DNA of 20,765 nucleotides, taken from the IMG/VR virus record IMGVR_UViG_3300037070_000862, positions 1 to 20,765 of that record. One strand, 5' to 3'. The notes beneath the pieces were generated by a model that saw only the letters and a program-made list of their open reading frames with translations, made no database searches and was not told where the DNA came from. Of the stretch, positions 1 through 13,181 are shown piece after piece; the stretch's first letter is position 1; each line of letters begins with the position of its first letter. Source of the DNA: a virus. Position numbers and translations under genes: made by a program.

Positions 1-9
1 CGAGACTTT

Positions 10-83
10 ATCTGTGTAGCTCAGTTGGTTAGAGCGCGTTCCTGATAAGAACGAGGTCGCTGGTTCAAGCCCAGCCATAGATA
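10..83 (+). tRNA. tRNA-Ile (anticodon GAT)
   Basis: Complete cloverleaf read by eye. The acceptor is 10-16 with 76-82 (one G-T pair) and the discriminator A is at 83. The D-stem GCTC/GAGC is at 19-22/32-35, the anticodon stem CGTTC/GAACG at 37-41/49-53, and the loop CTGATAA carries anticodon GAT at 44-46. The T-arm GCTGG-TTCAAGC-CCAGC follows. CCA is not encoded (CTA follows the discriminator), so the host must add it. It reads ATC/ATT isoleucine codons. A strong terminator begins three bases downstream, so this is the last gene of a plus-strand unit entering from the left. Confidence 0.95.
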
Positions 84-85
84 CT

Positions 86-137
86 AAGACCCCCAGCAGT
101 TCCCATGCGAAAGCTACGGACAGTCTGGGGGTTTTTG
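86..137 (+). terminator. Rho-independent terminator after tRNA-Ile
   Basis: The arms 86-96 (AAGACCCCCAG) and 125-135 (CTGGGGGTTTT) pair with one G-T wobble around a roughly 28-base loop that holds a small GC-GAAA-GC hairpin. The 3' arm runs into TTTTT (132-136). The T-run exists only on the plus strand, so it stops plus-strand transcription coming out of the tRNA. Confidence 0.85.
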
Positions 138-163
138 CTTTTTAATGCCAAAGAGACTAGAAT
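135..163 (+). promoter_or_regulatory. Sigma70-type promoter for the plus-strand small gene
   Basis: A -35 box TTGCTT (135-140) and a -10 box TAGAAT (158-163) are separated by exactly 17 bases. The -35 box overlaps the T-run of the preceding terminator, so one unit ends where the next begins. The start site would be near 170, leaving a leader of about 30 bases that contains AAGGA (189-193) before the TTG at 201. Confidence 0.6.
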
Positions 164-200
164 GTAACAAGTAGGTAACAATCTATCTAAGGACTTGACT

Positions 201-452
201 TTGAACGAAGACAACAGTATGCAGCCGGTATGGTTTACGGCGCGTGTGGCAAACAAAAATGCCGGGTATTTCGAAGCTGTCCCCATTGGTACAGACCCGA
301 TCACCGGCATGATTGACTATAGAATTACAATTGACAATGAAGTCTTTGTCGTGGCACATCATCCTGACAAATCTATTTGGATGCTATTATATCGTGCCTT
401 AGATTCCTCACTCTTCGGGGAAGACACCGATGAATTACCGCCAGAACTCTAG
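201..452 (+). CDS. Hypothetical small protein, only plus-strand CDS
   Basis: Not recognised. The product is 83 residues if translation starts at TTG 201, which lies seven bases after AAGGA. An ATG at 219 is possible but has a poorer ribosome site, and a TTG at 195 is too close to the AAGGA. The protein looks soluble, with alternating hydrophobic and charged residues suggesting beta strands and an acidic C-terminus (GEDTDELPPEL). No Cys pairs or membrane segment are visible. It has its own promoter and converges on the long minus-strand operon, ending 71 bases from it, so it may be expressed at a different time from the replication genes. Confidence 0.7.
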   Translation: MNEDNSMQPVWFTARVANKNAGYFEAVPIGTDPITGMIDYRITIDNEVFVVAHHPDKSIWMLLYRALDSSLFGEDTDELPPEL

Positions 453-523
453 TCCACGCCATAGCGAGCCTACGCATATCATGTAACAGCGTTCCCGGTA
501 GTGTTTCTTCCTGCCACCACGCT

Positions 524-763
524 TCAGTCAAGAACTTCTACTTCGGCTAGTGTGGGAACTATAACGCCTCCTGCATAGCTTCCATAACCTAGTTTATTTG
601 AATAAACCCAGCGCGAACGTTTCAAGTCAACCCTTGTCCGTGTATGGTGCACGTATTGAACTTTAACTTCAACAACTGTGTCATTCTTTGACTTCACAGA
701 CTTACGGTAAGTAATGCGAACGTTCTTACCGATGTGTCTACCGTCAAGTTCCATTGCTATCAT
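524..763 (-). CDS. Small paralogous protein, family A copy 1
   Basis: 79 residues, no known function. The ATG at 763 is chosen because AAGGAG (777-772) lies seven bases upstream. It belongs to a three-member family in this window (others at 2535-2801 and 12056-12313). Shared features are an N-terminal MEL-D/N/S-G stretch, a basic ITYR or ISWR motif near residue 20, V-x-YVHH in the middle, and a C-terminal A-x-VEVLD ending. The short beta-rich pattern would suit a small barrel fold, but that is inference. It is the last gene of the minus-strand operon and overlaps the Cys-rich gene by 20 bases. Confidence 0.8.
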   Translation of the reverse strand: MIAMELDGRHIGKNVRITYRKSVKSKNDTVVEVKVQYVHHTRTRVDLKRSRWVYSNKLGYGSYAGGVIVPTLAEVEVLD

Positions 764-896
764 GGTTACACTCCTTACAGCCACACACAAGCACGGCCTG
801 ATCTGATTCTCTGGTCAACTCTTTGTTACAATGCTCGTGATCATTGCCGATGCAGTAACCACAAGGTTGCTTCCGCTTATATCTCTCGGGCATCAT
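744..896 (-). CDS. Cys-rich zinc-ribbon-like miniprotein
   Basis: A 50-residue ORF starting with tandem ATG codons (896 and 893). Counting from the second ATG, C11-x2-C14, H19/H21/C22, and C37-x-C39-x2-C42-x-H44 are visible, which would suit one or two zinc sites. It fills the gap between its neighbours, overlapping each by 20 bases in other frames, as the other genes of this operon do. A GGGACGAG stretch lies a few bases upstream of the first ATG. No enzyme motif is seen. Small zinc-binding proteins of this kind are common in actinobacteriophages, but the specific family is not recognised. Confidence 0.7.
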   Translation of the reverse strand: MMPERYKRKQPCGYCIGNDHEHCNKELTRESDQAVLVCGCKECNHDSNGT

Positions 897-1143
897 CCAA
901 CTCGTCCCTTAGTCGCGCTATTGTGCTGCGCGCTTCATCCATCACATGAAATGCCATAGGCAACAGGTTGACTAGGCGAATCATTTTCTCTTCCAGTGTG
1001 CCGTCTGAATCTAGGATGCCAAACGTGTTACCTTTCAGAACTTCGAAGGCTCGTTCATTTTCTGACAGATTAATGTCAGTCACTGGACGTTGATACACGT
1101 CTAATTCTGCCTTCAAAGATTCCATAGGTGTCTCTGATTCCAT
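877..1143 (-). CDS. Hypothetical acidic helical protein
   Basis: 88 residues, not recognised. The start ATG (1143) follows GGAGTG by nine bases; an in-frame ATG at 1125 lacks a good site. The protein is acidic and mostly helical in appearance, with a C-terminal stretch (ARSTIARLRDELDDAREI) that could form a short coiled coil. Its first 68 bases overlap the 3' end of the HNH gene in another frame, an unusually long overlap for this operon. Confidence 0.75.
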   Translation of the reverse strand: MESETPMESLKAELDVYQRPVTDINLSENERAFEVLKGNTFGILDSDGTLEEKMIRLVNLLPMAFHVMDEARSTIARLRDELDDAREI

Positions 1144-1396
1144 CTTCTGTCACTCCAATCATTGCGTGTAGTGCTACCGAAATTCTGCATGTCTCACAGT
1201 TGCAGACAGGCCACATGCTTCCTTTACCGTTGTTGCATAGCTCACAGGCACGGACGTAGTTGAAAGTAGCGTTTTGCCCACCACGAGCTTTAGGCACAAT
1301 GTGGTCACGTGTCAGCTTACGGTTGCGTGAGCCGCAGTAGTGGCACTTGTTTTTAGTTCTCGGCCCCGCTACGGATGCGCTCAATCTCCCGCTCAA
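1076..1396 (-). CDS. HNH endonuclease-type protein
   Basis: About 106 residues with the layout of an HNH nuclease: a zinc knuckle C18-x2-C21, then RDHIVPKARGG with D31-H32, N46, and a second knuckle C51-x2-C54 followed by NNGKGS. An extra C-x-C-x2-C cluster lies near residues 65-70. Such proteins cut DNA, often as homing enzymes or in phage packaging. No ATG is available: TTG codons at 1396 or 1384 are the only plausible starts, and neither has a clear ribosome site. It overlaps the upstream gene by 44 and the downstream gene by 68 bases, which fits an insertion later trimmed to fit. Activity is not shown. Confidence 0.75.
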   Translation of the reverse strand: MSGRLSASVAGPRTKNKCHYCGSRNRKLTRDHIVPKARGGQNATFNYVRACELCNNGKGSMWPVCNCETCRISVALHAMIGVTEDGIRDTYGIFEGRIRRVSTSSD

Positions 1397-1763
1397 TGTA
1401 CCATTTCGCTTTCTCTAAATCTTCCATTTCAGTGTCAACATTTTTCACGCCAGCGCGAGCAACGTATTTGACTACGTTTCCGCGATTATAATTCAACTGC
1501 TCCGCAAGGTCAATGACCTCTAGCCCTTTGAAATGCGTGTAATGCTTCGGGTTAATCGCATCACTCTCAGGTTCTGGCAAATAATTGTAAGAATTAATCC
1601 ACGTCCAACCGTCTTTCTCTAACTCAACTAATGACTCACGAGAAACCTTTGTTCGGGCTTCATCCATCCACACCCATCCATGTTCTTCAAGAATGAAGGG
1701 CAGGTTGGACTTATTGCCTAAAACTAAAGCTCCCAATTCGGTTGGTAAATCCATGTTAGACAT
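1353..1763 (-). CDS. DUF3310 (T7 gp1.7 nucleotide kinase-like) protein
   Basis: 136 residues. The C-terminal half (about 69-125) matches the DUF3310 pattern: NPKHY (71-75), GLEVIDLAEQL, then N-x-GNVVKYVARAG (about 94-105) and EDLEKAKWYIERE (115-127). The family includes the nucleotide kinase gp1.7 of phage T7, so a role in nucleotide metabolism is likely but unproven. The N-terminal 65 residues are specific to this protein and rich in tryptophan-containing segments. The ATG at 1763 follows AGGA by four bases. It overlaps the upstream gene by eight bases. Confidence 0.8.
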   Translation of the reverse strand: MSNMDLPTELGALVLGNKSNLPFILEEHGWVWMDEARTKVSRESLVELEKDGWTWINSYNYLPEPESDAINPKHYTHFKGLEVIDLAEQLNYNRGNVVKYVARAGVKNVDTEMEDLEKAKWYIEREIERIRSGAEN

Positions 1764-2058
1764 TCAATCCTGCTTCCTCTAGTGCAAGGATAGCCCTTGC
1801 CGTACATATTTCGGCTCCGTCATCGTACCTGTGCTTAAACTTCGCGTGTTTATCTACAATGATCTGATTGTACACAGACCCATCCATCGTGCTGTCTGTT
1901 ATAATCTCAACGTAATCTGGGGGCTGGCGTGTGACATAGTATTCAGCCCAACCATCTTCTGCGACAGCTTCAGTACGCCAAATGTACATCGTTGAAATAG
2001 GTTTAATAGAATCGCCGCTGTCATTAGACAGCGCAACATCTACTCGTAGTGCGCCCAA
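1756..2058 (-). CDS. Hypothetical protein with TTG start
   Basis: 100 residues, not recognised. The TTG at 2058 is favoured because GGGGAG lies six bases upstream, inside the end of the RuvC-like gene. The start falls one base beyond that gene's stop, so translation is probably coupled. The composition is that of a soluble mixed alpha/beta protein with several aromatic residues near positions 25-50 (YIWRTE, WAEYYVTRQPPDY) and a helical C-terminus (ARAILALEEAGLNV). No catalytic motif stands out. Confidence 0.75.
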   Translation of the reverse strand: MGALRVDVALSNDSGDSIKPISTMYIWRTEAVAEDGWAEYYVTRQPPDYVEIITDSTMDGSVYNQIIVDKHAKFKHRYDDGAEICTARAILALEEAGLNV

Positions 2059-2059
2059 T

Positions 2060-2542
2060 TTATTCTCCCCAGTATGCTTGTTGTGTCGGTAAATGGTTCA
2101 TCTTAGCATACGCCAGAGCGTGAATGCGAGCATCGTTTTGGTGACGGTTACCGGGCACCCAGAAACCTAGTCTCTTTAGCTCAGAATCGGGCACTAGAGC
2201 CTTTTTAACGTTCCTTTGGTAGACCACCCTACCCGTACCCGCTAAGGCCGTTAGAGCGCCTTCTATGCGTAGTGGAGTCACGTCAGGAAATTTGGTTCTA
2301 CCGTCAAGCACAAACGATTCGGACACAATAACGTCAAAATCTAGTGGGCTGTAACTAATATCGAATCCTTCAACTCCACGACCAGTTTGTGTGTAAGTGT
2401 AAGTATTCCACCACTCCACGAAACCGTCAACACCATCAGGTATCTGACCACCATCAAAAAATGTTAGCGGCGCGTCGTCATAGTATACGGACAGCGACCA
2501 GCCGGTAGTACCTCCGGGGTCAAATGAGAGCAAACTAGTCAT
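2060..2542 (-). CDS. RuvC-like Holliday junction resolvase
   Basis: 160 residues, the usual size for phage RuvC-like nucleases. The RNase H-fold acidic residues are visible: D8 in LLSFDPGGTTGW on the first strand, E75 in VIVSESF, and D137 in QNDARIHALAYA near the C-terminus. The family resolves four-way and branched DNA using two metal ions, so it likely clears recombination or replication intermediates before packaging. The ATG at 2542 follows GGAG by seven bases and overlaps the upstream family A gene by eight bases. Confidence 0.85.
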   Translation of the reverse strand: MTSLLSFDPGGTTGWSLSVYYDDAPLTFFDGGQIPDGVDGFVEWWNTYTYTQTGRGVEGFDISYSPLDFDVIVSESFVLDGRTKFPDVTPLRIEGALTALAGTGRVVYQRNVKKALVPDSELKRLGFWVPGNRHQNDARIHALAYAKMNHLPTQQAYWGE

Positions 2543-2801
2543 CTAGTAGCTCCACATCAGCGTAGTAAGGAATGAAGAACGGGATACCGTTTTCGCCGAA
2601 AGTCTGGTAAAGATATTTACCGTAGAAACTATCGTGCCACCACTTGTTAGTGAGTCCAATTTCACCACTACTATAGTGATACACGTACTCTATCTTCACG
2701 TAAATCTCTTTGAACACACCATTTTTGCGGTTGGTTCTCCAAGAAATTTTAGCCTTCCGACCCACATACATGCCGTTAAGCTCTATAGCTTTGATACTCA
2801 C
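2535..2801 (-). CDS. Small paralogous protein, family A copy 2
   Basis: 88 residues, unknown function. It is related to the products at 524-763 and 12056-12313: AIELNGMYVGRKAKISWR at the start, IEYVYHY in the middle, and ADVELLDD at the end. It is the most diverged copy, with a Trp- and Tyr-rich central stretch (NKWWHDSFYGKYLYQTFG). The start is GTG at 2801, within a GTGA overlap with the upstream stop, so it is probably translated by coupling because no clear ribosome site is seen. Confidence 0.78.
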   Translation of the reverse strand: MSIKAIELNGMYVGRKAKISWRTNRKNGVFKEIYVKIEYVYHYSSGEIGLTNKWWHDSFYGKYLYQTFGENGIPFFIPYYADVELLDD

Positions 2802-3067
2802 TTCGCAAACCCCGCATTCTTCATTGCACGTAGCTCTGTGACAAACACACTCGCCTGATTAGGGAACGCAATCGGCACAGGTGTACCCATGACACTCTCC
2901 ATAGAGTGCATTTTAATGTCAACAAGCTTAGCTTCAAGAGGATGCGTGCCCTGAAAACCAATGACAGTACCGCTCATAATAGTCTCAGCAACGACACCAC
3001 GCTCATTCAGCGTGAAGCTGAACACCACACGATCACCAATCGCAATACGATCTGGTACTCTACTCAT
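2798..3067 (-). CDS. Small paralogous protein, family B copy 1
   Basis: 89 residues, unknown function. It forms a tandem pair with the gene just upstream (3060-3305). Both have I-x-x-GDRV followed by an aromatic-rich strand near residue 10, a G-x-V-x-G turn, and a D-x-K-x-HS-x-ESV motif around residue 50. The pattern of short beta strands after a GDRV turn recalls SH3-like barrels, but this is inference. The ATG at 3067 has GAGGT upstream and overlaps the preceding stop by eight bases. Confidence 0.78.
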   Translation of the reverse strand: MSRVPDRIAIGDRVVFSFTLNERGVVAETIMSGTVIGFQGTHPLEAKLVDIKMHSMESVMGTPVPIAFPNQASVFVTELRAMKNAGFAK

Positions 3068-3305
3068 TAAATAACCTCAGTTCTGCGTCATCACTTATTT
3101 CTACGTTTTCTTTAGGAATTCTCAATGTTTTGTTAAATCCATCAACTGATTCAAAAGAGTGCAACTTTACATCTGCTACTTCGCGCTTTCCGTTAGGTCT
3201 TACACCTACGTAAGTGGCAGAATAAATCCATGACGAATCCACGCCAGACCATTTACCTTCGTAAGACCACAACACACGGTCACCGGGTTCGATCTTATCG
3301 CTCAC
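3060..3305 (-). CDS. Small paralogous protein, family B copy 2
   Basis: 81 residues, unknown function. GTG at 3305 is chosen over the TTG at 3320 because GGGGAG lies seven bases upstream and because this start aligns the protein with its tandem paralog (IEPGDRVLWSY against IAIGDRVVFSF; VKLHSFESV against IKMHSMESV). The start overlaps the polymerase C-terminal gene's stop in GTGA, so expression is coupled to the polymerase. The family B pair probably arose by local duplication. Confidence 0.78.
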   Translation of the reverse strand: MSDKIEPGDRVLWSYEGKWSGVDSSWIYSATYVGVRPNGKREVADVKLHSFESVDGFNKTLRIPKENVEISDDAELRLFNE

Positions 3306-4042
3306 TTTAAATCTCCCCAACTCCGCGCGAAACTATATTCTGATAAGAACGGTACTTTGTCACCGAACACAGCTTCACCTGTAATTCTGAATTCTGATTG
3401 TATATGCTTACCTATCTTATCCGCAAGTTTTTGTGCCGTTGGGGGATGTTTTTCTGGTATTTCCACAAGGATAGCGTCATGCACAAGGGCAACAATGTGT
3501 GCGCCTTGTGACTTAATCCAGTCATGCACACGGATAGCGGTTACCAAACAAATGTCAGAACTCGTAGCCTGTGGGAGAAATGCTAGTGCCTCCCGCTTGA
3601 TCGCAGCCATGTTGACGTGTGTTACCACTTCAGACTGAAACCTACGACCAAACGGGGACACCAACAGGTCACGCTTCAGCGGGTTGACAGCAGCCTCTTT
3701 CACATCTTCACGCCATTGCGCGAACTTGTTAGCTGTTGACAAATAGTTGTCAATGATAGTGCGTGCTTCCCGCTGGCTGATACCCAACTCGAAACCAATA
3801 GCCCTGTCACCACGATCAAACGCGAGTCCATACACAACGGTCTTCACCTGTACGCGGAACTCTTTTTTCTCAATCGCTGTGATGTTTGACATGTTAATGC
3901 TCGGGAAACATACCGGCATCATGTAGGTGTCGAAGTAATCTCCCGCACCCTCACGCAGCGCAGCAAGCATCCAAGGGTCATCAGACAGCGCAGCCATACA
4001 ACGTAGCTCCGCTTGTGACAAGTCAACCTGTAGTAACGTCAT
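3302..4042 (-). CDS. Family A DNA polymerase, C-terminal (polymerase) half of a split enzyme
   Basis: 246 residues with most of the palm and fingers of a Pol I-type polymerase. It starts at motif A: VDLSQAELR with catalytic D7. Motif B (O-helix) is R63-x3-K67-x3-Y71-x3-F75. LPQATSSDI (156-164) matches the usual QGTAADI region. Motif C is LVHDA with H188-D189-A190. Three positions differ from E. coli Pol I: Tyr for Phe762, Phe for Tyr766, and Ala for Glu883. The exonuclease domain and thumb are in the separate gene at 4886-6253. The ATG at 4042 sits in an ATGA overlap with the preceding stop. An in-frame stop five codons upstream rules out a longer N-terminus. Both halves are presumably needed for activity. 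Confidence 0.92.
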   Translation of the reverse strand: MTLLQVDLSQAELRCMAALSDDPWMLAALREGAGDYFDTYMMPVCFPSINMSNITAIEKKEFRVQVKTVVYGLAFDRGDRAIGFELGISQREARTIIDNYLSTANKFAQWREDVKEAAVNPLKRDLLVSPFGRRFQSEVVTHVNMAAIKREALAFLPQATSSDICLVTAIRVHDWIKSQGAHIVALVHDAILVEIPEKHPPTAQKLADKIGKHIQSEFRITGEAVFGDKVPFLSEYSFARSWGDLK

Positions 4043-4449
4043 CCGTTTAGATCATTCTCGCTTACTGTTTGTGTTGGCTTAGTTTTCTTAGGCTTAGGTG
4101 CCAGCGCTAGACGTTTCTTCATGTCCCGCGCAAAATTGGGTGGTAAGGGCATGGAAGGTATATTTATTGTCCCTCTAGTAGTGTTGTAAGTCACAACCCT
4201 ACTACTAACGTGGCTAAGCCTACTCAAAGCGCTAGTTAAATATTTTTCTGCCTGAAGAATTTCCTGCTCCATGTGCTTAGGGACATTCTGCAAACTATTA
4301 ACATACAGCAACGTATCCGCAGCGTAATTCCGGTACACTTCGACGTTAGCGTTAGCGACACGTGCCTTCTTTTCGAGTCGCTTAATACGTTTCTTCTGAC
4401 GCTGAACCTCTTCAAACAAAAACGTTTCAAGCTCTGTAGGCTCACTCAC
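4039..4449 (-). CDS. Hypothetical coiled-coil protein between the polymerase halves
   Basis: 136 residues, not recognised. Residues 8-40 are a charged heptad-like helix (EEVQRQKKRIKRLEKKARV). A second helical part lies around 58-85. The tail from about 109 is basic and proline-rich (KKRLALAPKPKKTKP). This suggests a multimer-forming or nucleic-acid-contacting protein, which is inference. GTG at 4449 is in a GTGA overlap with the previous stop, and its own stop overlaps the start of the polymerase C-terminal half. Its position makes a role as an assembly partner of the split polymerase worth considering. Confidence 0.75.
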   Translation of the reverse strand: MSEPTELETFLFEEVQRQKKRIKRLEKKARVANANVEVYRNYAADTLLYVNSLQNVPKHMEQEILQAEKYLTSALSRLSHVSSRVVTYNTTRGTINIPSMPLPPNFARDMKKRLALAPKPKKTKPTQTVSENDLNG

Positions 4450-4715
4450 GGTGCCAACACTCTCCTAACAAAATCTGCAACCAGCGCTTCACCGCTGACA
4501 TAAAAGTTTTTCATCTTGTTGTTCTCTATCCACTGTAAATAAACGTCAATCTCAGCGGAAGAACCACCGCACGTTTCGCAGCCCGACTGCCACTCGTCAT
4601 ATCCTGTAATTGTAAAGTCAACAGAATCTATGTCGATGTTTGCGATACGCGAAACGTCAACGCCAGCAGCGCGTAGTAGGGCTAGCTTGTAGTTAAGCTC
4701 CCACTCATTCGTCAT
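4446..4715 (-). CDS. Hypothetical protein with one CxxC pair, between the polymerase halves
   Basis: 89 residues, not recognised. It has a single C46-x2-C49 pair (SGCETCGGSS), an N-terminal helix (WELNYKLALLRAAGVDVSRI) and a C-terminal helix (GEALVADFVRRVLAP). One CxxC pair is not enough for a tetrahedral metal site unless it dimerises. The ATG at 4715 overlaps the preceding gene by 11 bases. It is the middle one of three small genes separating the polymerase halves. It carries no homing-endonuclease motif. Confidence 0.72.
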   Translation of the reverse strand: MTNEWELNYKLALLRAAGVDVSRIANIDIDSVDFTITGYDEWQSGCETCGGSSAEIDVYLQWIENNKMKNFYVSGEALVADFVRRVLAP

Positions 4716-4896
4716 CGTCCGGGTCTTCCTGCTCGTCTGGTAGGTCTGGGATTGCGAAACCGATCACAGTAGAACGGTTGTCGTGAACCTCTGGGGTCAT
4801 AGCTAACTTTAGCGCATCCTCATAGCGCTTAGCAATACCAAAACCCTGATATGAGACATTAATTTGGTTGGATTCGATCTTAAATTTACCCCACAT
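4705..4896 (-). CDS. Hypothetical acidic-tailed protein overlapping the polymerase N-half
   Basis: 63 residues, not recognised. The ATG at 4896 is set by an AGGAG four bases upstream. That ribosome site lies inside the last codons of the polymerase N-terminal half (the RSIYV codons), so the two are tightly coupled. The protein starts MWGKFKIESNQINVSYQG, has a short helix (AKRYEDALKLAMTPEV) and ends in an acidic tail (DEQEDPDDDE). A longer ORF upstream of this ATG is just the polymerase region in another frame. Confidence 0.75.
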   Translation of the reverse strand: MWGKFKIESNQINVSYQGFGIAKRYEDALKLAMTPEVHDNRSTVIGFAIPDLPDEQEDPDDDE

Positions 4897-6253
4897 AAAT
4901 GCTCCTAAACTTTTTGTCTCGCGGAATGTTCTGAATGTTAGGCTGTGCGCTTGACAGACGGCCTGTAGACGTGCCGTGAATCTTAAACGTAGTGTGCACA
5001 CGTCCGTTAACTTCAGCCGACAGAGCGCCCTTGACATATGTGTTCAACGCTTTGACTGTCTTACGGTATTCAAGCAGCTTATCAATGAAATCAACAATCA
5101 GTTGGTTGTGGTGCCAAGCTTTCTTCACGTTCAGCAAACTCTTTTCATCTGTGCTGGCCGCGTACACGCCACCCATAAAGGTTGACAGTACAGTTTGAAC
5201 CTGCTGCCACGAAGACGGATTGAAACCCGCTTTAGGATTCTTTAATTGAACAGTACGTGTCAAAAAGCTTAGCTCAGTGTGTAGCTGTATCGCTTCCAAC
5301 TCCATTTGCTTAGCTAACTGCTGTGCATACGGTACGTCAATGGCGAACCCGAACTGTTCAACGTCCAACAGGAATTCGCTTGCAGCCATTTCAAGCATGA
5401 ACGCTTTGCTAGCTTCCTCGTCGGCAAGAATTAGCGGCTCCAAATACTGCCACAATTCATACGTCCAATACACGTCCCACAGGTTGTATTCATTCAAGAT
5501 ATCTGCTGGCACGTTCTCGTAGTGCGCCTTGTTTTTCAGGTACTTACTGAGATCAGCTTCCCATTCGGGTGCACCGAGATACATCTTGCACAAAGGCTTT
5601 AAAGCGTGCAGTCCTGCCGCCATGTTCAACACGTGGTGAGCCAACATGGTGTCGAAGTAGTTAGGCATACGCACACCTGTTTGTGCTTCGATCACACGTG
5701 TATCGAACTTACCGTTATGCCAAATAGGGTATTGGATTTTCCGCAAGATATCCTTGCGCCAGTCAGCGAAGTATGGTACGCCACGCATGTCCCAGATATC
5801 CCAGTTACCATCCTGATAAAAAGCGATACTCAAAATCTTGACCTGCTCAGGTGTCTCAGTTGCAAGGTCACCTGCCGTTTCAATGTCAACAGCAATTGGC
5901 TTATCAAAGTCAAAACGATTGATACTGCTGTTAACAAACGCGCTGGCAGGGCGGGTTTTCTGAGGCAGATACAACTGGTTCAACGCTGCTTTAAGAACAC
6001 TCGCAGCATTAGCTTTCGTACACAACTGCGCCACACTATACGTGCGGATAGCTTTAGTAAACTTAAATGGGCATGACCCAAGGATGATCATATTCTGCCC
6101 TGTACCCGCGTTATTAATTGCGCCATTAGCTATAGCTGTTACATCAGTAAACACAAACGTATTCGGCGGGTAGTCCTGTAGTACCTGCTCTACAATTTCG
6201 TAAGCATCACGATTAAGAGGCTGCTCCGAGTAGATTAGTACTTTGATTGACAT
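4886..6253 (-). CDS. Family A DNA polymerase, N-terminal (exonuclease and thumb) half of a split enzyme
   Basis: 455 residues. Residues 1-115 are an unrecognised N-terminal region. Next is a 3'-5' proofreading exonuclease with AVDIET (D123, E125), HNGKFD (D184) and Y256-x3-D260. The thumb and start of the palm follow, with the TSTGRLSSAQPNIQNIP motif (428-444). The protein stops at TAA after KKFRSIYVG, where Pol I has RNAFIAPEDY. The next four or so residues are missing and the sequence resumes with motif A in the gene at 3302-4042. The combined length of 701 residues is normal for an exonuclease-polymerase. The ATG at 6253 follows GAGGAA by five bases. Confidence 0.92.
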   Translation of the reverse strand: MSIKVLIYSEQPLNRDAYEIVEQVLQDYPPNTFVFTDVTAIANGAINNAGTGQNMIILGSCPFKFTKAIRTYSVAQLCTKANAASVLKAALNQLYLPQKTRPASAFVNSSINRFDFDKPIAVDIETAGDLATETPEQVKILSIAFYQDGNWDIWDMRGVPYFADWRKDILRKIQYPIWHNGKFDTRVIEAQTGVRMPNYFDTMLAHHVLNMAAGLHALKPLCKMYLGAPEWEADLSKYLKNKAHYENVPADILNEYNLWDVYWTYELWQYLEPLILADEEASKAFMLEMAASEFLLDVEQFGFAIDVPYAQQLAKQMELEAIQLHTELSFLTRTVQLKNPKAGFNPSSWQQVQTVLSTFMGGVYAASTDEKSLLNVKKAWHHNQLIVDFIDKLLEYRKTVKALNTYVKGALSAEVNGRVHTTFKIHGTSTGRLSSAQPNIQNIPRDKKFRSIYVG

Positions 6254-6635
6254 TTAATTTCCTCGCAATAGTGGACAGGCCAAGGCCGGTCAGCTTACTG
6301 ATTACACGTCTGCTGTTACCATCGTCAACTGCTGCTTGAAGCAACACTTTGTTGAGAGGTAGTTTGTTGTTAAAGTTTAGTCGCAACTGCAACAAGGTGT
6401 CAAGCGATTGTGGGTTGAATCTTCCTGAACCTTTGGATGGAAGCTTCACGTCCATACCATACAAGGTACTGGTTGACAATCCGCTGATCTGTGCTAACTG
6501 CCCTACACTAAACAACTCCCATTCTGACAAAGAAATGACAGCCTCGTAGCGTTGCTGTCTGTCCATGTAGACGCTGTGTGTGTACAAATACTTAGCCTCA
6601 TTCATTGCCACCACGTAGTTAATGTTATTCGCCAT
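6213..6635 (-). CDS. Helix-turn-helix DNA-binding protein
   Basis: 140 residues with two HTH-like stretches: about 42-61 (FSVGQLAQISGLSTSTLYG) and about 108-130 (RRVISKLTGLGLSTIARKL). The first resembles the recognition part of sigma-factor or Xre-like domains. The second resembles resolvase-type HTHs. It lies between the primase and the polymerase N-half, overlapping them by 11 and 41 bases. It may be a replication-linked DNA-binding protein or a regulator. The ATG at 6635 follows GGAG by ten bases. No catalytic domain is visible. Confidence 0.78.
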   Translation of the reverse strand: MANNINYVVAMNEAKYLYTHSVYMDRQQRYEAVISLSEWELFSVGQLAQISGLSTSTLYGMDVKLPSKGSGRFNPQSLDTLLQLRLNFNNKLPLNKVLLQAAVDDGNSRRVISKLTGLGLSTIARKLNVNQSTNLLGAAS

Positions 6636-8811
6636 TGTAATTTATCTCCAAAGTTATTTTGTTACCTGTACGTCGCTGGATGATTCTTCCCATATCTTCC
6701 AGACCATCAGCCATTTCAAGAAACTCTTTAGGGCGCTTATCTGTGAACTGTTTGTAAGCCATTTCGTAGCTGACCTTACCGCCCTTAACAACAATGAACT
6801 GCTCCAACTTGTTGAGGTCAGACTGCCACGAAGATTCACTGATCATTGCCGCTATTTTTTGCAGGTCATCGTACCATTCTTCGGCAAGATCAATTGCAGC
6901 CAACACATGCTCTAAGCCGATGATATTTTTCTGGTCATCCATAGCAAACAGGGCTGACGTTTTTGCCACACTAATGACAAGACGTTCAATCGGGCCTTTA
7001 AGAGTTTCGAAACGTGAACTGGTCATAATCATCTGCTTGATCTGCACACTAAACAGGTTCAGACGTTTCAGCGCTGCATCATCGAACCGGATAGGTACTG
7101 TCTGCTCACGTGTACCACGCATGTCCCAGAAGTTGCGGTTCACAGCCAGATGTTTCACCAACGACTCACGTACCGGGTCAACGTACCCTGCATTGATCGC
7201 GGGAGACTGGTTGAGCGGGTCATTGTGCGGTTCATACGGGCGAGGCTCAACGAGGGTGTACAGGAATCGTGTAAGGAATCCCGACTCGAAGTGCTTGACA
7301 GTCAGAGCTTCAGCAACATGCGTGACAATACCTGTCAGATACATTTGAAAGTTAACTGTCACAGACTTGATAACCTGCTTGTCACCTGTACTGCGGAGAG
7401 TACCACGAGACTTACCAGAGTAAAGCTGAGTCCAATAACCGACTAGACCTGTCAGATATCCCTGACTAAACACTTCCCTGAACACGTCCTGAATTTCGTC
7501 AGCATGAAGCAGCGAAGACTGGTGGGCGCGTTCTGACAATAGTTTGTTCAAACCCTGCTGTGTAACGTCAGACCCAATATCATACGAGTAATCGGGTGTC
7601 TCCAAAGACTCCAAGATACCTGTCATATATTTGAGCGCAGTCGTCTTACGGTCAACCGTTGTGTTACCGAGAGACATGACCCAGATAGCAAGGTTTGTCT
7701 GCTCAAACTCGAACGGGATATGTCCGAACTCTGCGTACACTGTAGACATTAAAATGAGCGCAGCCATACGGTGATACTTAGCTGGGCTTGTGGTGTGCTT
7801 AGTTGCCCATGCCTCATACTTGTCAATGAATGTGACCGGGAGCATAGCGCGTTCCGCATCAGACAGGAAGTTGGCTGGCTCAATCGTTTCAATGACTGAC
7901 ATAAGTTTGTCACCATCAGGTGAGGGTTCCACAACTTTACCGTCATCAACGGGAGGCTGATTCTCAGGGTCAACTTCAGCGTTGAGAATTTCTTTCCACA
8001 ACTGTTCTTGCGGGCGACCTTCCTGCTTATACTTGCAGCACGGAGCATCCCATACGAGAACCAAAACCTCTTCAGCACTGAAGCCTGAACGGAACAACTC
8101 GCTTTCCAGACGGTAACGCATTTCAGAACGCTTACCGGGGATAGGCTCGTCAAACAACAGGTTGCGGAGAACCTTGTCGTCAGACAGCTTACCGAGCAGA
8201 GCAGCACGATCAGGTAGTGGTGTTGTAATTTCCCTGTCAGTACCGTACACCTTTTCAGTGGTGTCTGACATTGGATATTCAAGTTCCAGCTTAGCCAGCG
8301 GGTACACGTAGGCAGGATTGTTGGACACCACAACGCGGTAGTTCTCGCGGTTGGTGTTTAGACTACCCGGCACACGTAGCATCTTTGCAGCGTGCCCGAA
8401 CGAGCGATCAAGTCCTTCATCCTTGTGCGCCCAGTGTACGCGGCGGTTCAGGAGAGCTACGGTATGCGGGTTATAATCACCATCGAGTAGCCAATAATTG
8501 TGTGTACGACCAGTAGCAGTAGTGACAGTAATACTAGGAGCCACACGGTACTTGCTAGGGTCAAAAATATCGCTGTCAGCGTAGGCCACACTCGTTGTTT
8601 TAGCATAGATTTTCTCCCTCTTAGGCTGACTGAACAGCACAGGACTGAAGTACACCTGATTGGTTGACATTCTTTGTTCAACCCATTTGGTCATGTCGTC
8701 AAGCTGTGCGGGATACTGGAAGAATGTACCGGGAGTTGTGAGGTCTGTCGTCAGGACAGCGTAACCTTCGCCAGCACCCAGCACTGTTTCAAGAAAGCTA
8801 CGAACGTCCAT
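6625..8811 (-). CDS. AEP-type primase fused to a DUF3987-like helicase/ATPase
   Basis: 728 residues. The N-terminal part (about 1-180) looks like a RepB/prim-pol primase: YADSD with a D79-x-D81 metal pair, THNYWLLDG around 103-111, and KMLRVPGSLNTN at 143-154. The C-terminal part (about 310-700) looks like the DUF3987 ATPase: a modified P-loop G382-NTTVDRKTT and a Walker B LLHADEIQD with D438-E439. The P-loop lacks the second glycine of classical Walker A, as is common in this group. The protein would prime and unwind phage DNA with the polymerase encoded next. The ATG at 8811 follows GGAG by five bases. A terminator hairpin lies 20 bases upstream, so expression may be attenuated. Confidence 0.85.
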   Translation of the reverse strand: MDVRSFLETVLGAGEGYAVLTTDLTTPGTFFQYPAQLDDMTKWVEQRMSTNQVYFSPVLFSQPKREKIYAKTTSVAYADSDIFDPSKYRVAPSITVTTATGRTHNYWLLDGDYNPHTVALLNRRVHWAHKDEGLDRSFGHAAKMLRVPGSLNTNRENYRVVVSNNPAYVYPLAKLELEYPMSDTTEKVYGTDREITTPLPDRAALLGKLSDDKVLRNLLFDEPIPGKRSEMRYRLESELFRSGFSAEEVLVLVWDAPCCKYKQEGRPQEQLWKEILNAEVDPENQPPVDDGKVVEPSPDGDKLMSVIETIEPANFLSDAERAMLPVTFIDKYEAWATKHTTSPAKYHRMAALILMSTVYAEFGHIPFEFEQTNLAIWVMSLGNTTVDRKTTALKYMTGILESLETPDYSYDIGSDVTQQGLNKLLSERAHQSSLLHADEIQDVFREVFSQGYLTGLVGYWTQLYSGKSRGTLRSTGDKQVIKSVTVNFQMYLTGIVTHVAEALTVKHFESGFLTRFLYTLVEPRPYEPHNDPLNQSPAINAGYVDPVRESLVKHLAVNRNFWDMRGTREQTVPIRFDDAALKRLNLFSVQIKQMIMTSSRFETLKGPIERLVISVAKTSALFAMDDQKNIIGLEHVLAAIDLAEEWYDDLQKIAAMISESSWQSDLNKLEQFIVVKGGKVSYEMAYKQFTDKRPKEFLEMADGLEDMGRIIQRRTGNKITLEINYNGE

Positions 8812-8830
8812 GTATACTCCACATCATTTG

Positions 8831-8874
8831 TTGAAAAAATAAAGCCAACCATAGACGAATGCATATGGTTGGCT
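8831..8874 (-). terminator. Intrinsic terminator or attenuator before the primase gene
   Basis: A perfect 11-base-pair stem (8874-8864 AGCCAACCATA with 8853-8843) around a 10-base loop is followed on the minus strand by TTATTTTTTC. It ends about 20 bases before the primase ATG, and no promoter fits between them. The primase operon must therefore be reached by read-through or antitermination past this site. It could also simply end the tRNA-Leu transcript. Confidence 0.85.
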
Positions 8875-8883
8875 GAACATTAG

Positions 8884-8943
8884 AGTCATAGTAGTCTAGG
8901 CTCGATTTCCTATTACTTCAATGCTATCTCTAGCACTATGACT
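8884..8943 (-). repeat. Inverted-repeat structured element next to tRNA-Leu
   Basis: Perfect 9-base arms AGTCATAGT (8884-8892) and ACTATGACT (8935-8943) enclose 42 bases. Read on the minus strand, the interior can form a GCTA-GAGA-TAGC hairpin and a TAGG/CCTA hairpin. The element begins two bases after the tRNA-Leu discriminator. It could be a folded RNA in the tRNA transcript, or an operator pair around the candidate promoter. Confidence 0.5.
8893..8921 (-). promoter_or_regulatory. Candidate sigma70 promoter upstream of the attenuator
   Basis: On the minus strand TTGAAG (8921-8916) and TAGACT (8898-8893) are 17 bases apart, each matching four of six consensus bases. Transcription would start near 8886 and meet the terminator hairpin about 12 bases later. 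The -10 region touches one arm of the 9-base inverted repeat at 8884-8943, so a repressor site is possible. The boxes are moderate matches. Confidence 0.35.
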
Positions 8944-8945
8944 TG

Positions 8946-9025
8946 TACCCCGAGTGAGAATCGAACTCACAGACAATATCACTCGCTTTTGAGGCGAGCC
9001 GCTTTACCGTTTTGCGTACCGAGGC
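8946..9025 (-). tRNA. tRNA-Leu (anticodon CAA), unusual geometry
   Basis: Read on the minus strand. The acceptor GCCTCGG (9025-9019) pairs with TCGGGGT (8953-8947) through four standard and three G-T pairs, and the discriminator is A (8946). The D-stem is only CGC/GCG, with GG in the loop. The anticodon stem CTCGC/GCGAG holds the loop CTCAAAA, giving anticodon CAA for UUG. The T-arm GTGAG-TTCGATT-CTCAC is canonical. The variable region (TGATATTGTCT, 11 bases) is short for leucine tRNAs, which normally carry a long arm. CCA is not encoded. Confidence 0.85.
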
Positions 9026-9033
9026 TGGACGCA

Positions 9034-9071
9034 GGGGCTAGCGTTGACATTTGACTGCCAAGACTAGCCCC
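9034..9071. repeat. Inverted repeat between the SSB-like gene and tRNA-Leu
   Basis: Arms GGGGCTAG (9034-9041) and CTAGCCCC (9064-9071) enclose 22 bases. There is no T-run on the minus side and only a short TTTT (9077-9080) on the plus side, so it is not a clear terminator. It may act as an mRNA 3' stabiliser or processing hairpin between the ssDNA-binding gene and the tRNA. Confidence 0.5.
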
Positions 9072-9097
9072 CACGATTTTGCAAGAGTGGCCGCGTT

Positions 9098-9622
9098 CTA
9101 GCTACGGTTTAATCCACCCCATGAGGGCGCTTCAGGTGCGCTTTGCCCATTAGTAGCAGCAACACCATCAGCAGCGGAGGCATAACCCCCGACTTCATTG
9201 AAGACACGCTTCTGCGCGTCCGGTGCCTTTTCGTTGACCTTAATTGTCAACGAAGTTCCCAACACAGATGCGATATCTGCGGTGTCAGGCACGTTAGGGT
9301 TACCGTCAGCGTCACGACCCCAACCTACGGCATCAGCGAAAGTTACGAGCTTCCACGCACCGGGGCTGTCGTACAGCGGAATGTTCTGGTAACGAATCTC
9401 ACGACCACGAGCGTTCTGCTTAATACCCTTAGCATCAGTCCACTCGAAGTCTTCCTGAACCTTAAATGTCAGGACAAGCTGGGGCTTACCAGCGTTATCG
9501 CCTGACTTGACAGCTACCTCTTCGATAGCAAACACTGTAGCCTGAAGCTTAGTGCCATGAGGAATCGGGGCGAATTCTCCACCACCACGATTGTCTGAAC
9601 CAACATTAATTACTCTACCCAT
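9098..9622 (-). CDS. Probable ssDNA-binding (SSB-like) protein
   Basis: 174 residues. The ATG at 9622 is chosen because GGAG lies seven bases upstream; the ORF runs 20 codons further but without a ribosome site. The central part (about 15-130) is strand-rich with repeated Gly and Lys residues (GTKLQATVFAIEEVAVKSG, GREIRYQNIPLYD, LGTSLTIKV), like the OB-fold SSB analogues that many phages encode beside Sak4 and Cas4-type genes. The tail is low-complexity and ends in APSWGGLNRS rather than the acidic tip of bacterial SSB. The assignment relies on pattern and neighbourhood, so it is moderate. Confidence 0.6.
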   Translation of the reverse strand: MGRVINVGSDNRGGGEFAPIPHGTKLQATVFAIEEVAVKSGDNAGKPQLVLTFKVQEDFEWTDAKGIKQNARGREIRYQNIPLYDSPGAWKLVTFADAVGWGRDADGNPNVPDTADIASVLGTSLTIKVNEKAPDAQKRVFNEVGGYASAADGVAATNGQSAPEAPSWGGLNRS

Positions 9623-9632
9623 TTTGTATCTC

Positions 9633-10340
9633 CTATTTTGCTTGCTCAATAAGTTCGTTGATTGATTTAATTGTAGGGTCATAAATCTTCGAAGGCAAAC
9701 CGAAACGGTTTTTCGTTACCAAACCGAGAGCTTCACCTACATACAATGTACGACGCAGCTTACCTTCAGGGTCTGTCTCGTAGTTGTAGTACCCCACGAT
9801 ATCAGACACAGTTGGCACGTCTTCCTTAAAGCTACCCTGATACTTCGGGATAGTTTTCACGGCACCAGTCTGCTCGTTCTTTTCATCCAAAGCATGGAAG
9901 ATAAAAACGGTTGGGATAGGTGAGTGATGGAAACCCCACATGAAGTCGCTCGTCCAATCAGCAAGGTCAGCCCATGCACCGTACTTGTTGGAGCGGTTCT
10001 GCGGTAGGTTCTGGAAGTGTGCCGTAGCGATCTTACCAGCACGGTTCATGGTATCAAAAATAACCATATCAACGTCGCCGGGATTACGCAATAGCTCAGT
10101 CTTAATCTCTTCCAGATGACTATACGTTGGTGCGCTAATGCGTTTCACTCCGGGGTTCAAACGACCCACACCCTTAGCTGACCCTTCAATGTCAACAATC
10201 AGTGTGCGCTCAAAACCCGCGTGAATAGCTGACGCCCCAAGGTTAGTCTTACCAACACCACTCGGGCCGTAAACTGTGAACGAATCAAAAGTGTCTAGCA
10301 CTTCAACGTCCTCAATACCATCATCAAAACTATAACCCAT
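9633..10340 (-). CDS. Sak4-like RecA-fold ATPase (single-strand annealing type)
   Basis: 235 residues with a single RecA-like ATPase core. Walker A is GPSGVGKT (25-32), a second strand gives TLIVDIEGSAKG (47-58), and Walker B is DMVIFDT (91-97). A further strand, TVFIFHALDE, sits after residue 140. Length and motifs match phage Sak4/AAA_24 recombinases, which pair single strands together with an SSB. The SSB-like gene follows ten bases downstream, and a Cas4-like nuclease is nearby upstream. The ATG at 10340 is in a TAATG overlap, with GAGGA just before it. Confidence 0.8.
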   Translation of the reverse strand: MGYSFDDGIEDVEVLDTFDSFTVYGPSGVGKTNLGASAIHAGFERTLIVDIEGSAKGVGRLNPGVKRISAPTYSHLEEIKTELLRNPGDVDMVIFDTMNRAGKIATAHFQNLPQNRSNKYGAWADLADWTSDFMWGFHHSPIPTVFIFHALDEKNEQTGAVKTIPKYQGSFKEDVPTVSDIVGYYNYETDPEGKLRRTLYVGEALGLVTKNRFGLPSKIYDPTIKSINELIEQAK

Positions 10341-10522
10341 TAGTCCTCTTTCGCTTTCTTTTCAGCAAGTTCTTTAGCTCGCCTGAAACCATCTTGAAAC
10401 CCACGATCATACACAGGCATCACAGCGTAAGCTTGCGCCGGTACATTCATGTTAGGCCGTCTGACTTCGAAACGTGCGTACTCTTCGTTGTACAAGTCCA
10501 CCAGAATTTTTGAATCTATCAT
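10340..10522 (-). CDS. Hypothetical 60-residue protein
   Basis: Not recognised. ATG at 10522 is in an ATGA overlap with the previous stop, and its own stop overlaps the Sak4-like start, so it is translated as part of this set. The C-terminus is a charged helix (FRRAKELAEKKAKED). The first half has tyrosine and hydrophobic residues without an obvious motif. It may be an accessory to the recombination genes, judged only from position. Confidence 0.72.
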   Translation of the reverse strand: MIDSKILVDLYNEEYARFEVRRPNMNVPAQAYAVMPVYDRGFQDGFRRAKELAEKKAKED

Positions 10523-10860
10523 GGCTTGAACCTGATTTCAACTTTGTTCTTCGGGAAGTGCTTCTGGCACGCTTCGTACTGCGTCGCAGTCAGGTGTTCC
10601 TTAGCCTTCTTGCTGTCCACAGATGCTGTGTACAGGTGCATGTTCTCACCGTTCTCACCCAGCGGGAACAGTACCTGTGCTATAGCCGCATCGAACCGAA
10701 CGTTAGGCGACACAACAACTTCAACGGAACCATAATCATACACGTCAGGCATTGCTTCCGCAAATCCTTCGCTTGACATTATCTCGTCAAGTTCCTCTTG
10801 AATCTGCTTCATCTGATTTTTGAGTGTCAGATACTTCAGCAGCATTGCTTCGTCAGCCAT
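10519..10860 (-). CDS. Hypothetical protein with N-terminal coiled coil
   Basis: 113 residues, not recognised. The first 30 residues form a probable coiled-coil helix (LKNQMKQIQEELDEIMSSEG). The rest is a mixed domain with beta strands (YGSVEVVVSPNVRFDAAIAQ) and a Lys-rich end. Phages often carry proteins of this layout beside Sak4 and SSB genes. The ATG at 10860 has GAGGAAAAAGA directly upstream, a good ribosome site after the 66-base gap. Confidence 0.75.
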   Translation of the reverse strand: MADEAMLLKYLTLKNQMKQIQEELDEIMSSEGFAEAMPDVYDYGSVEVVVSPNVRFDAAIAQVLFPLGENGENMHLYTASVDSKKAKEHLTATQYEACQKHFPKNKVEIRFKP

Positions 10861-10897
10861 TCTTTTTCCTCTTCATTTCGTTACTATTAAGCTTACC

Positions 10898-10911
10898 ATC
10901 TGGCATCAGAT
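10898..10911. repeat. Short dyad in the 66-base gap 10861-10926
   Basis: ATCTG-GCAT-CAGAT is a 5-base-pair dyad, about 38 bases upstream of the start at 10860. It has no T-run, so it is not a terminator. It could be a protein-binding site. The rest of the gap shows no convincing promoter and no ORF. Confidence 0.25.
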
Positions 10912-10926
10912 TTGTCCAATCCGTAC

Positions 10927-11076
10927 TCAATTTCGTTCGGAAGTAACACGTTCGATAGCTTCCATCACATCAAGGTCAGGTTCTGTTTCAGCTAAGCGTT
11001 CTAGCGCCTCAAAATCTTCCATGAAAAGTTTCTCAATAGCATCCTGCTCCGCAATAATCCTAGCCAACCCATCCAT
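10927..11076 (-). CDS. Hypothetical 49-residue acidic protein
   Basis: The ATG at 11076 follows GGAG by five bases; longer in-frame readings upstream lack a ribosome site. It is very acidic and helical throughout (ARIIAEQDAIEKLFMEDFEAL, with EALERLAETEPDLDV after it), possibly a short coiled coil. No known family. It sits eight bases after the Cas4-like gene. Confidence 0.65.
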   Translation of the reverse strand: MDGLARIIAEQDAIEKLFMEDFEALERLAETEPDLDVMEAIERVTSERN

Positions 11077-11084
11077 TATAACTC

Positions 11085-11789
11085 CTACATTCTGTGTAAA
11101 ATCTGCGAACAAACGTAACAGTGAGGGTCAGACTCTAAGGTGTCGATATCTCCACCGTCCTGCAACCACTCGTAAGCCAACACTACACGATTCCATGCCT
11201 CGTCTGCAAGTGTTTCGTCATAATCAAATGAAATAACTGTCACATCACGGTCACTTGTACCGTCACGCGCAATGAAAACAAACGAAACCTTCTCCACCGG
11301 GTAACCCATAGCAACCAACGCGCGCCCGTACAGCATGATCTGGTACAAGTATCTGGTCGGTAAGGCATCAGGATTCAGGCGGTACTCGTCAATCTTAGAA
11401 CGCTTTGACGTTTTATAGTCAACAAGATGTTTCTCCGCTGTCAAATATAAGTCAGGCGTCGAGTTCACGTCACCATAGCCCGGTATCGTACCGATAAACA
11501 CGGACTCTTCCAGACGTGCACCTATGAGTGACTTGAATTTGGCATCTGTGCCCCCACCCACATGCTTTTGAGCCTCTAACTCCATGAGCATGTGGATTGC
11601 ATCACCAATTTTTGCGCCCAGCCAGTACTGCCCGATACTACTTGACCCATCCGATAGGTGACGCGCTAAACAGTACGCACAAGGGTCACCGATAGCGCTG
11701 GCACCAATGGTGGTCTGCCTATCGCGTGCCTTCTGCGTCTTCAGCAGGTCTAGCATGAGTCTTTTTAGTACCGAGTCGTCTAAGCTCAC
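11085..11789 (-). CDS. Cas4-like RecB-family Fe-S exonuclease
   Basis: 234 residues with the Cas4/AddB-type PD-(D/E)XK layout. The cysteines are C37-x2-C40 near the N-terminus and C224-x2-C227 near the C-terminus, as expected for a 4Fe-4S cluster. The nuclease residues are H66 (GDAIHML), D113 (TPDLYL), D124 and K126 (DYKTS), and Q150-x3-Y154 (YQIMLYG). The family trims DNA ends, and in phages the gene often pairs with Sak4 and SSB genes. No CRISPR array is present, so a recombination role is more likely than adaptation. The start is GTG 11789 (AGAGAAG just upstream); ATG 11756 is an alternative. It overlaps WhiB by 71 bases. Confidence 0.85.
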   Translation of the reverse strand: MSLDDSVLKRLMLDLLKTQKARDRQTTIGASAIGDPCAYCLARHLSDGSSSIGQYWLGAKIGDAIHMLMELEAQKHVGGGTDAKFKSLIGARLEESVFIGTIPGYGDVNSTPDLYLTAEKHLVDYKTSKRSKIDEYRLNPDALPTRYLYQIMLYGRALVAMGYPVEKVSFVFIARDGTSDRDVTVISFDYDETLADEAWNRVVLAYEWLQDGGDIDTLESDPHCYVCSQILHRM

Positions 11790-12069
11790 GTCGCTTCTCT
11801 TTCCGTTGCTCCGGTGTCATCCCACCCCAGATTGAACTATTTTCTTCAGCAATGGTAGCGTATTCGCCACACAAATCCAACACGTGACAGTCAGCACACA
11901 ACTCAGCCGCCACTTCAGGCGTCGTACTGTTAACCCATGCCCCAGTCCATTGCTCAACATCATTGAAGCGGTCAGAGTTGTTATATGCCTTACGGCACGG
12001 CTCTGTTTCGTTCAGCTTCCAACGCAGTTTATTATAAAGATCGTCGGGGTCACCATTAGTTATCGTCAT
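11719..12069 (-). CDS. WhiB-family Fe-S regulator
   Basis: 116 residues. Four cysteines are present: C25, C58-x2-C61 and C67 (PCRK, ELCADCHVLDLC). They are followed by the SIWGGMTPEQR turn and a basic tail (KEKRRELRRLGTKK). This is the WhiB layout of a 4Fe-4S cluster plus DNA-contacting tail. WhiB proteins bind the host housekeeping sigma factor and adjust promoter use, and are restricted to Actinobacteria and their phages. The ATG at 12069 overlaps the previous gene by 14 bases. Confidence 0.9.
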   Translation of the reverse strand: MTITNGDPDDLYNKLRWKLNETEPCRKAYNNSDRFNDVEQWTGAWVNSTTPEVAAELCADCHVLDLCGEYATIAEENSSIWGGMTPEQRKEKRRELRRLGTKKTHARPAEDAEGTR

Positions 12070-12313
12070 CCAAGAACTCCACAACTGCATCGAATGGGAT
12101 GCGAAAATTAGTACTCACACCACGTGACCAGTTAAGTGCGCGTCCACTACCATATGCCCCGTAGATATACACTTCACCACCCGGCTTGTGTGTGATCTTG
12201 CCGAGAACACCCTCTACTGTGGCGTCAGGCTCGTCTTTCTTGAACGTTGTAAACCTGTAGGTGATGCGTACATGCCTCTTCACATGCACGCCTGACAATT
12301 CCATTGCAATCAT
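12056..12313 (-). CDS. Small paralogous protein, family A copy 3
   Basis: 85 residues, unknown function. It shares MIAMEL-x-G-x-HV and VRITYR at the start and VVEFLDDDN at the end with the copies at 524-763 and 2535-2801, though it is about 9-11 kb away from them. The middle is more diverged and glycine-rich (GGEVYIYGAYGSGRALNW). GGTGG precedes the ATG at 12313. It lies immediately upstream of WhiB. Confidence 0.78.
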   Translation of the reverse strand: MIAMELSGVHVKRHVRITYRFTTFKKDEPDATVEGVLGKITHKPGGEVYIYGAYGSGRALNWSRGVSTNFRIPFDAVVEFLDDDN

Positions 12314-12314
12314 A

Positions 12315-12509
12315 TTACCACCACGTTTCTATTAGTTTATTGATTAGCTGTACTACAGCCGAAAAAATAAAGGGGACAAGAATGAACAGGAACCCAAACC
12401 ATCCACTAACAGATATAGTCAGCGACAGAATACCAATGACAGACATGGTAGCTATCATAGCTATACCAAACAACGCTGTGCACTTCAGCGTGTTGACGAT
12501 AAAATTCAT
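12315..12509 (-). CDS. Small two-helix membrane protein
   Basis: 64 residues with two hydrophobic segments, about 9-32 and 36-58, and short polar ends; charges suggest a hairpin in the membrane. It lacks features of a specific family. A holin-like role cannot be excluded, but its place in a replication arm does not support that. The ATG at 12509 is in an ATGA overlap, with GGAGA six bases upstream. Confidence 0.72.
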   Translation of the reverse strand: MNFIVNTLKCTALFGIAMIATMSVIGILSLTISVSGWFGFLFILVPFIFSAVVQLINKLIETWW

Positions 12510-12736
12510 TTCTTGTCTCCAAAATATATGTCCATAACCTTACCCAGATTTTCCATCTGCCATACGATTTTTGCTACTTCTTTTTCAAAATCGCTAAGCT
12601 GTTGGCTCTGAGAAACTTTCGAGGTCGGGGAGGTATCCTGTGGTGCTGTCGGTGTTGTAGTGGCCGCTGGCTTCGGCCTCTTCGAGTCGGACATATTCTG
12701 GTCGAACATCTTCGACAGTTTCTTCAGGTTCGACAT
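12506..12736 (-). CDS. Hypothetical protein with low-complexity linker
   Basis: 76 residues. The ATG at 12736 has AAGGA four bases upstream. A Ser/Thr/Pro/Ala/Gln-rich linker (about 23-48) separates a short basic N-terminus from a helical C-terminus (DFEKEVAKIVWQMENLG). The first 143 bases overlap the 3' end of the previous gene in another frame, much more than other overlaps here. If translation began later, at the ATG 12694 (MSDSKRP) or within the helix, the overlap would shrink. Not recognised. Confidence 0.6.
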   Translation of the reverse strand: MSNLKKLSKMFDQNMSDSKRPKPAATTTPTAPQDTSPTSKVSQSQQLSDFEKEVAKIVWQMENLGKVMDIYFGDKK

Positions 12737-12965: not shown

Positions 12966-13181
12966 TTACTTGACATACCCTTCACGAATGTACACAATCA
13001 ATGCACGGATATCTTGTACCAGAAACCACACAGCCAGCCCTGCACCGATAATGTTAAGTGCGGTCAGGAACCCATGTGGCGGTGCGATAGCAGCCCACAG
13101 ATTTAGCGGCAGGATTAAACCCCACGCATAGATCATTACAATGACAAATACAAGGTCACCTGTACGTCTGATTCTTACCAT
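12966..13181 (-). CDS. Small two-helix membrane protein next to the VWA gene
   Basis: 71 residues with hydrophobic segments at about 10-31 and 40-60, a basic start (MVRIRRTGD), and a charged end (REGYVK). The start overlaps the VWA stop in TAATG, with GAGGA eight bases upstream. It could tie the VWA protein to the membrane; that is inference from position only. Function unknown. Confidence 0.72.
   Translation of the reverse strand: MVRIRRTGDLVFVIVMIYAWGLILPLNLWAAIAPPHGFLTALNIIGAGLAVWFLVQDIRALIVYIREGYVK

Follow-up and report, generated by a model that had tools for sequence, protein, structure and literature searches.

How does a virus come to carry its family A DNA polymerase in two pieces with other genes in between, and do the pieces still make one enzyme? 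The question is raised by a 20,765-nucleotide stretch of viral DNA (the window), in which the polymerase occurs as two genes separated by three small ones. All coding in the region around the polymerase halves lies on the minus strand, along which the relevant genes are:

6625-8811, minus strand: DNA primase of the polymerase operon (phrog_10514, E=2.8e-128)
6213-6635, minus strand: helix-turn-helix DNA-binding protein upstream of the polymerase, at the same place in the fused relatives Yappy and Anansi
4886-6253, minus strand: N-half, polymerase subunit 1, 455 aa (PF01612, E=7.4e-15; PF00476, E=3.6e-19; phrog_17, E=4.6e-61)
4705-4896, minus strand: intervening gene 1, 63 aa with an acidic C-terminal tail, overlapping the N-half by 11 bases
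4446-4715, minus strand: intervening gene 2, an ORF of 89 aa for which no relative was found
4039-4449, minus strand: intervening gene 3, for a coiled-coil-like protein of 136 aa, with a GTG start and a 4-base ATGA overlap with the C-half
3302-4042, minus strand: C-half, polymerase subunit 2, 246 aa (PF00476 positions 153-380, E=4.7e-30)
2060-2542, minus strand: downstream gene at the position where Yappy and Anansi have their RuvC-like resolvase (phrog_1981; synteny)

Subunit 1 comprises the N-terminal region, the 3'-5' exonuclease, the thumb and the first palm strands, and stops in the turn before motif A; subunit 2 supplies the motif A strand, the fingers and the catalytic palm with motifs A, B and C. 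The N-half carries PF01612 at 115-274 and PF00476 positions 12-138, such that PF00476 is divided exactly between the halves, and together the pair has the composition of a family A polymerase with a 3'-5' exonuclease (PF01612, PF00476, motifs A, B and C). The N-half ends in FRSIYVG (the longer stretch before the stop is NIPRDKKFRSIYVG, elsewhere written TGRLSSAQPNIQNIPRDKKFRSIYVG), and the C-half begins with MTLLQVDLSQAELR. The first-pass annotation had placed the end of the exonuclease-thumb half after RSIYVG, estimated that about four linker residues were missing and described overlaps of 4-11 bases between the intervening genes and the halves. ORF calls and Pfam bear out the position of the end, exactly four residues (SAED, 485-488) are absent by comparison with the fused relative L012, and the overlaps are 11, 11, 4 and 4 bases from the N-half to the C-half. 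These overlapping starts suggest translational coupling of the operon genes.

The cut site is predicted to be the turn of an exposed palm β-hairpin just ahead of motif A, where a model of L012 (pLDDT 88) has a five-residue turn (484-488) between a strand at 482-483 and the motif A strand at 489-495. Modelled alone by AlphaFold, the window C-half (pLDDT 91) has the motif A strand (2-8) at its very start and resembles the palm and fingers of Taq, Bst and Klenow, with a TM of about 0.8. The loop appears tolerant of change, because the fused relative L026 has a long insertion there, and accurate reassembly would be required because the motif A strand lies near the catalytic center.

A break in an essential gene, seen in one genome, would have the same appearance if the polymerase were decaying or if sequencing or assembly had introduced an artefact. 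We consider this explanation scarcely credible. An IMG/VR contig, L001, overlaps window positions 1-8203 at 100% identity (it may stem from related sequence data), and the same split recurs elsewhere. Viral contigs were searched with profiles, and an HMM test then asked whether both halves lay in one stop-to-stop frame. Among the matches listed, 189 of the 215 loci tested, some of them redundant, were fused, while the closest relatives of the window (L090, L091 and L093-L096) were all split. Six further viral lineages are cut at the same turn, with C-half identities to the window of 72-48%, giving seven split lineages: the window, L090, L091/L092 (identical in sequence; L091 is the same as L010), L093, L094, L095 and L096 (the same as L011). 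Their N-halves end, immediately before the stop, in RSIYVG, RSIYIG, RKAFIG, RKLVKTHGI, REIVRIEE, RRLVAITDDNNY and RKIVALSSGGS, and C-halves in the split clade start about 4 to 8 residues ahead of the motif A aspartate. A scan of genome contigs for prophage or genome relatives gave only distant matches (26-27%) among the matches listed. The search for homologues either joined in one ORF or split at the same site, proposed at first pass, has recovered both kinds, and where a continuous frame had been named as the result that would overturn the split, the identical contig L001 and six relatives carry the split instead.

Decay is further opposed by the catalytic residues and by selection. The N-half contains the exonuclease motifs DIE, NGKFD and YNLWD, and the C-half contains D7 of motif A, R63-x3-K67-x3-Y71 of motif B and H188-D189 of motif C. 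The exonuclease and polymerase catalytic residues are invariant across the seven split lineages, as are TGRLSS and NxQNxPR in the thumb and first palm part of subunit 1. The 'VHDA' form of motif C (E to A) is common to fused relatives and is therefore not a sign of decay. Between the window and L090, dN/dS is about 0.13 for the N-half (dN 0.33, dS 2.5) and about 0.11 for the C-half (dN 0.23, dS 2.2), with dS near saturation, and on these estimates both halves are under purifying selection. Neither relaxed selection nor lost catalytic residues, the marks of a pseudogene, were found in the window pair. The contigs of the relatives (two of 61 kb and four shorter, none certified as a complete genome) contain no other PF00476 match. 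Thus the catalytic motifs that the first-pass annotation saw in both halves are all present and conserved, and its preference for a working two-subunit enzyme over decay gains weight, at the level of sequence, from the seven-lineage split, the invariant residues and the dN/dS of about 0.11-0.13, as well as from the lack of a second family A polymerase and of an intron or intein (below).

The interval between the halves varies in size and gene content among relatives, from 0 to 3 genes:

L090: two genes, one for a zinc-type (CxxC) protein, the other weakly related to window gene 3 and at the same position
L091: no gene; halves joined by an ATGA overlap
L093: three genes, one without assignment, one acidic-tail and one zinc-type
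L094: one gene, acidic-tail
L095: one gene, unrelated to those of the other lineages
L096: one gene, acidic-tail

Homology among the L093, L094 and L096 acidic-tail proteins is clear. Window gene 1 is possibly related to these proteins, which share its position; BLASTP gave no alignment between it and the L096 protein, and shuffled alignments are suggestive only. Because L091 is nested within the split clade, the absence of genes there would most simply represent a loss, with the halves remaining separate.

Phage polymerase genes often contain introns, and an intron in the interval would allow a spliced transcript to encode one continuous polymerase. This idea was raised in 2023 by the authors who described MEP401 and MEP402, phages of OM43/Methylophilales (Zobellviridae; OP830906) whose DNAP occupies two ORFs with a small ORF, without homology, in between (PMC10580990). 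An intron with an HNH gene is indeed found in L036, of the SPO1/HMU type, where the polymerase gene is likewise broken by other ORFs; L036 differs, however, in its detectable group I intron, its HNH gene and its cut site. Rfam, which recovered the L036 intron as a positive control, gave no match in the window interval at gathering and permissive thresholds, and none in the intervals of L090-L096 or L215/L220/L221. No homing endonuclease occurs among the intervening genes (Pfam, PHROG), and the variable size and content of the interval also argue against splicing. There is no space for an intron in L091 and several MEP-type loci, because their halves overlap or touch, and splicing is unnecessary in L091, because its halves meet by the ATGA overlap. 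An intron is accordingly very improbable. Neither the halves nor the interval contain an intein (Hint) domain by Pfam, and both junction ends are polymerase sequence. Joining of the halves by frameshifting was also considered and rejected; it is geometrically possible in L091 only and impossible with genes intervening.

The locus very probably reflects fission of a one-chain polymerase, the halves most likely docking into one proofreading enzyme. The ancestor would have been an ordinary one-chain family A polymerase with exonuclease, thumb, palm and fingers, whose chain was broken in the short exposed β-hairpin turn of the palm just ahead of motif A. Two proteins would then be expressed from a single operon of overlapping genes and would dock via the interrupted hairpin and the interface of palm and thumb, while the junction would afterwards have gained and lost its 0 to 3 small genes. 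From this arrangement we infer that the genes are coupled in translation and that the pair docks and is active. A second replicative polymerase encoded outside the window, which is a 20.8-kb fragment, or reliance on the host polymerase may also be compatible with the arrangement.

Two other functional readings deserve consideration. The halves might act apart, in which case subunit 1 would be an exonuclease in its own right and subunit 2 a minimal polymerase or a protein of some other function; the domain content of subunit 1 would permit an exonuclease alone, and separate exonuclease subunits exist in some phages (LUZ24). The cut, however, is not placed at the exonuclease border, and the thumb and first palm strands are conserved in subunit 1 although they would be useless there alone. 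Subunit 2, for its part, lacks the thumb, with which known family A enzymes hold DNA, and separate action of the halves is clearly unlikely. We also regard it as unlikely, if slightly less so, that the small acidic-tail and coiled-coil proteins are extra subunits bridging the halves. Their overlapping position in the operon and the presence of an acidic-tail gene at this junction in L093, L094 and L096, perhaps also in the window, are consistent with such a role, whereas L091/L092 have no intervening gene, L095 has an unrelated one, and gene turnover is rapid.

Fission of a family A polymerase at this turn is not confined to the lineage of the window. MEP401 likewise has the exonuclease and the N-part of PF00476 in one ORF and the C-part in the other, cut in the same turn (TLFLSRYGE and a stop, then MILNADAKALE). 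Its polymerase clade differs from that of the window and is sister to fused HMO-2011-type enzymes. In Alcaligenes phage vB_Af_QDWS535 (UCR75322.1 / UCR75321.1) the same turn is cut between two adjacent, touching ORFs; unlike the window, this phage has no gene between the halves and belongs to the MEP401-type clade. All 79 loci of the MEP401/QDWS535 clade with both halves detected, among the matches listed, are split, with intervals between -13 and 657 bases (a single outlier is an artefact of detection), and an intron is not required there because some halves touch or overlap. The window pair shares the MEP401-type trait of two ORFs cut before motif A but falls outside this clade. In trees built from halves joined in silico, each split clade forms one group with fused enzymes as neighbors, and an AU test rejects the idea that both main split clades go back to one origin (p = 7.9e-25). 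A third split, independent and seen once, lies one strand upstream in an unrelated viral contig (L087:3887-5717; QCLPK and a stop, then MAKVDVRSFIIAPDGK, with 10 bases between). Close homologues of the window pair in Curtobacterium phage Yappy, Arthrobacter phages Anansi and Amigo and Stenotrophomonas virus Jojan60 are each one continuous chain.

Among the papers searched, the one on MEP401 was the sole match for a phage family A polymerase split in this manner. The first-pass annotation had left room for the split being already known as common in this phage group. No such description was found for the group of the window, but the same site is published for MEP401-type phages, and the split is to that extent less unusual than first thought. 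The PolB of MIJ3, which has an intein (PMC6892783), and the Pol III alpha of jumbo phages (PMC7824862) are also encoded by two genes but belong to other polymerase families. Pelagibacter HTVC025P and Mycobacterium CASbig, split by feature names, each have a single polymerase ORF, and in LUZ24, considered for its 'part II' label, the genes are laid out differently and the exonuclease is a subunit of its own. PHROG families 12241, 9556 and 2573 comprise polymerases of half length, and other split cases therefore probably exist. A 1133-aa family A polymerase frame at L199:4354-7752 has an apparent intein in its exonuclease domain (CLVPETKVL...LIANGLLTHN).

The halves occupy the position of the fused polymerase in Anansi and Yappy, and the window lineage is syntenic with actinobacterial phages. 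A WhiB-like regulator at window 11719-12090 supports an actinobacterial host. A promoter and terminator scan of the polymerase region gave no signal above chance. Elsewhere in the window, small paralogous protein families lie along the operon (524-790, 2535-2801 and 12056-12313; also 2798-3067 with 3060-3320), and a protein resembling them follows the C-half in L091. The same gene cluster includes a von Willebrand-like protein and a CobS/MoxR-like AAA ATPase (phrog_249) at 13181-13777 and 17395-18651. A tRNA-Ile at 10-84, on the window edge, may be the border of a tRNA array; large tRNA gene arrays lie just past the replication operon in L090, L091, L094, L095 and L096 (about 8000-12700), and in L094 the array, downstream of the split pair, contains a GOLLD RNA (Rfam RF02032, 210 bits) at 8231-8640.

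The split is real and conserved, most likely yielding a heterodimeric family A polymerase of the MEP401-like kind that arose independently. The strongest general point is convergence on one hairpin turn. Our judgement leans modestly towards the turn before motif A being a recurrent natural breaking point, at which unrelated lineages independently became obligately two-subunit, no re-fused member having been found in either clade; the junction would then be where new small genes settle, some perhaps as polymerase partners. The overlapping junction here gains and loses genes inside what was formerly a single essential gene. If the halves reassemble, stable split polymerases would have arisen naturally at least twice, by a β-hairpin cut beside the catalytic aspartate, and would offer a ready-made design for split polymerase tools. 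The same reading would provide an alternative to the published intron explanation for MEP401-type phages and would mean that a phage replication polymerase tolerates fission over long times.
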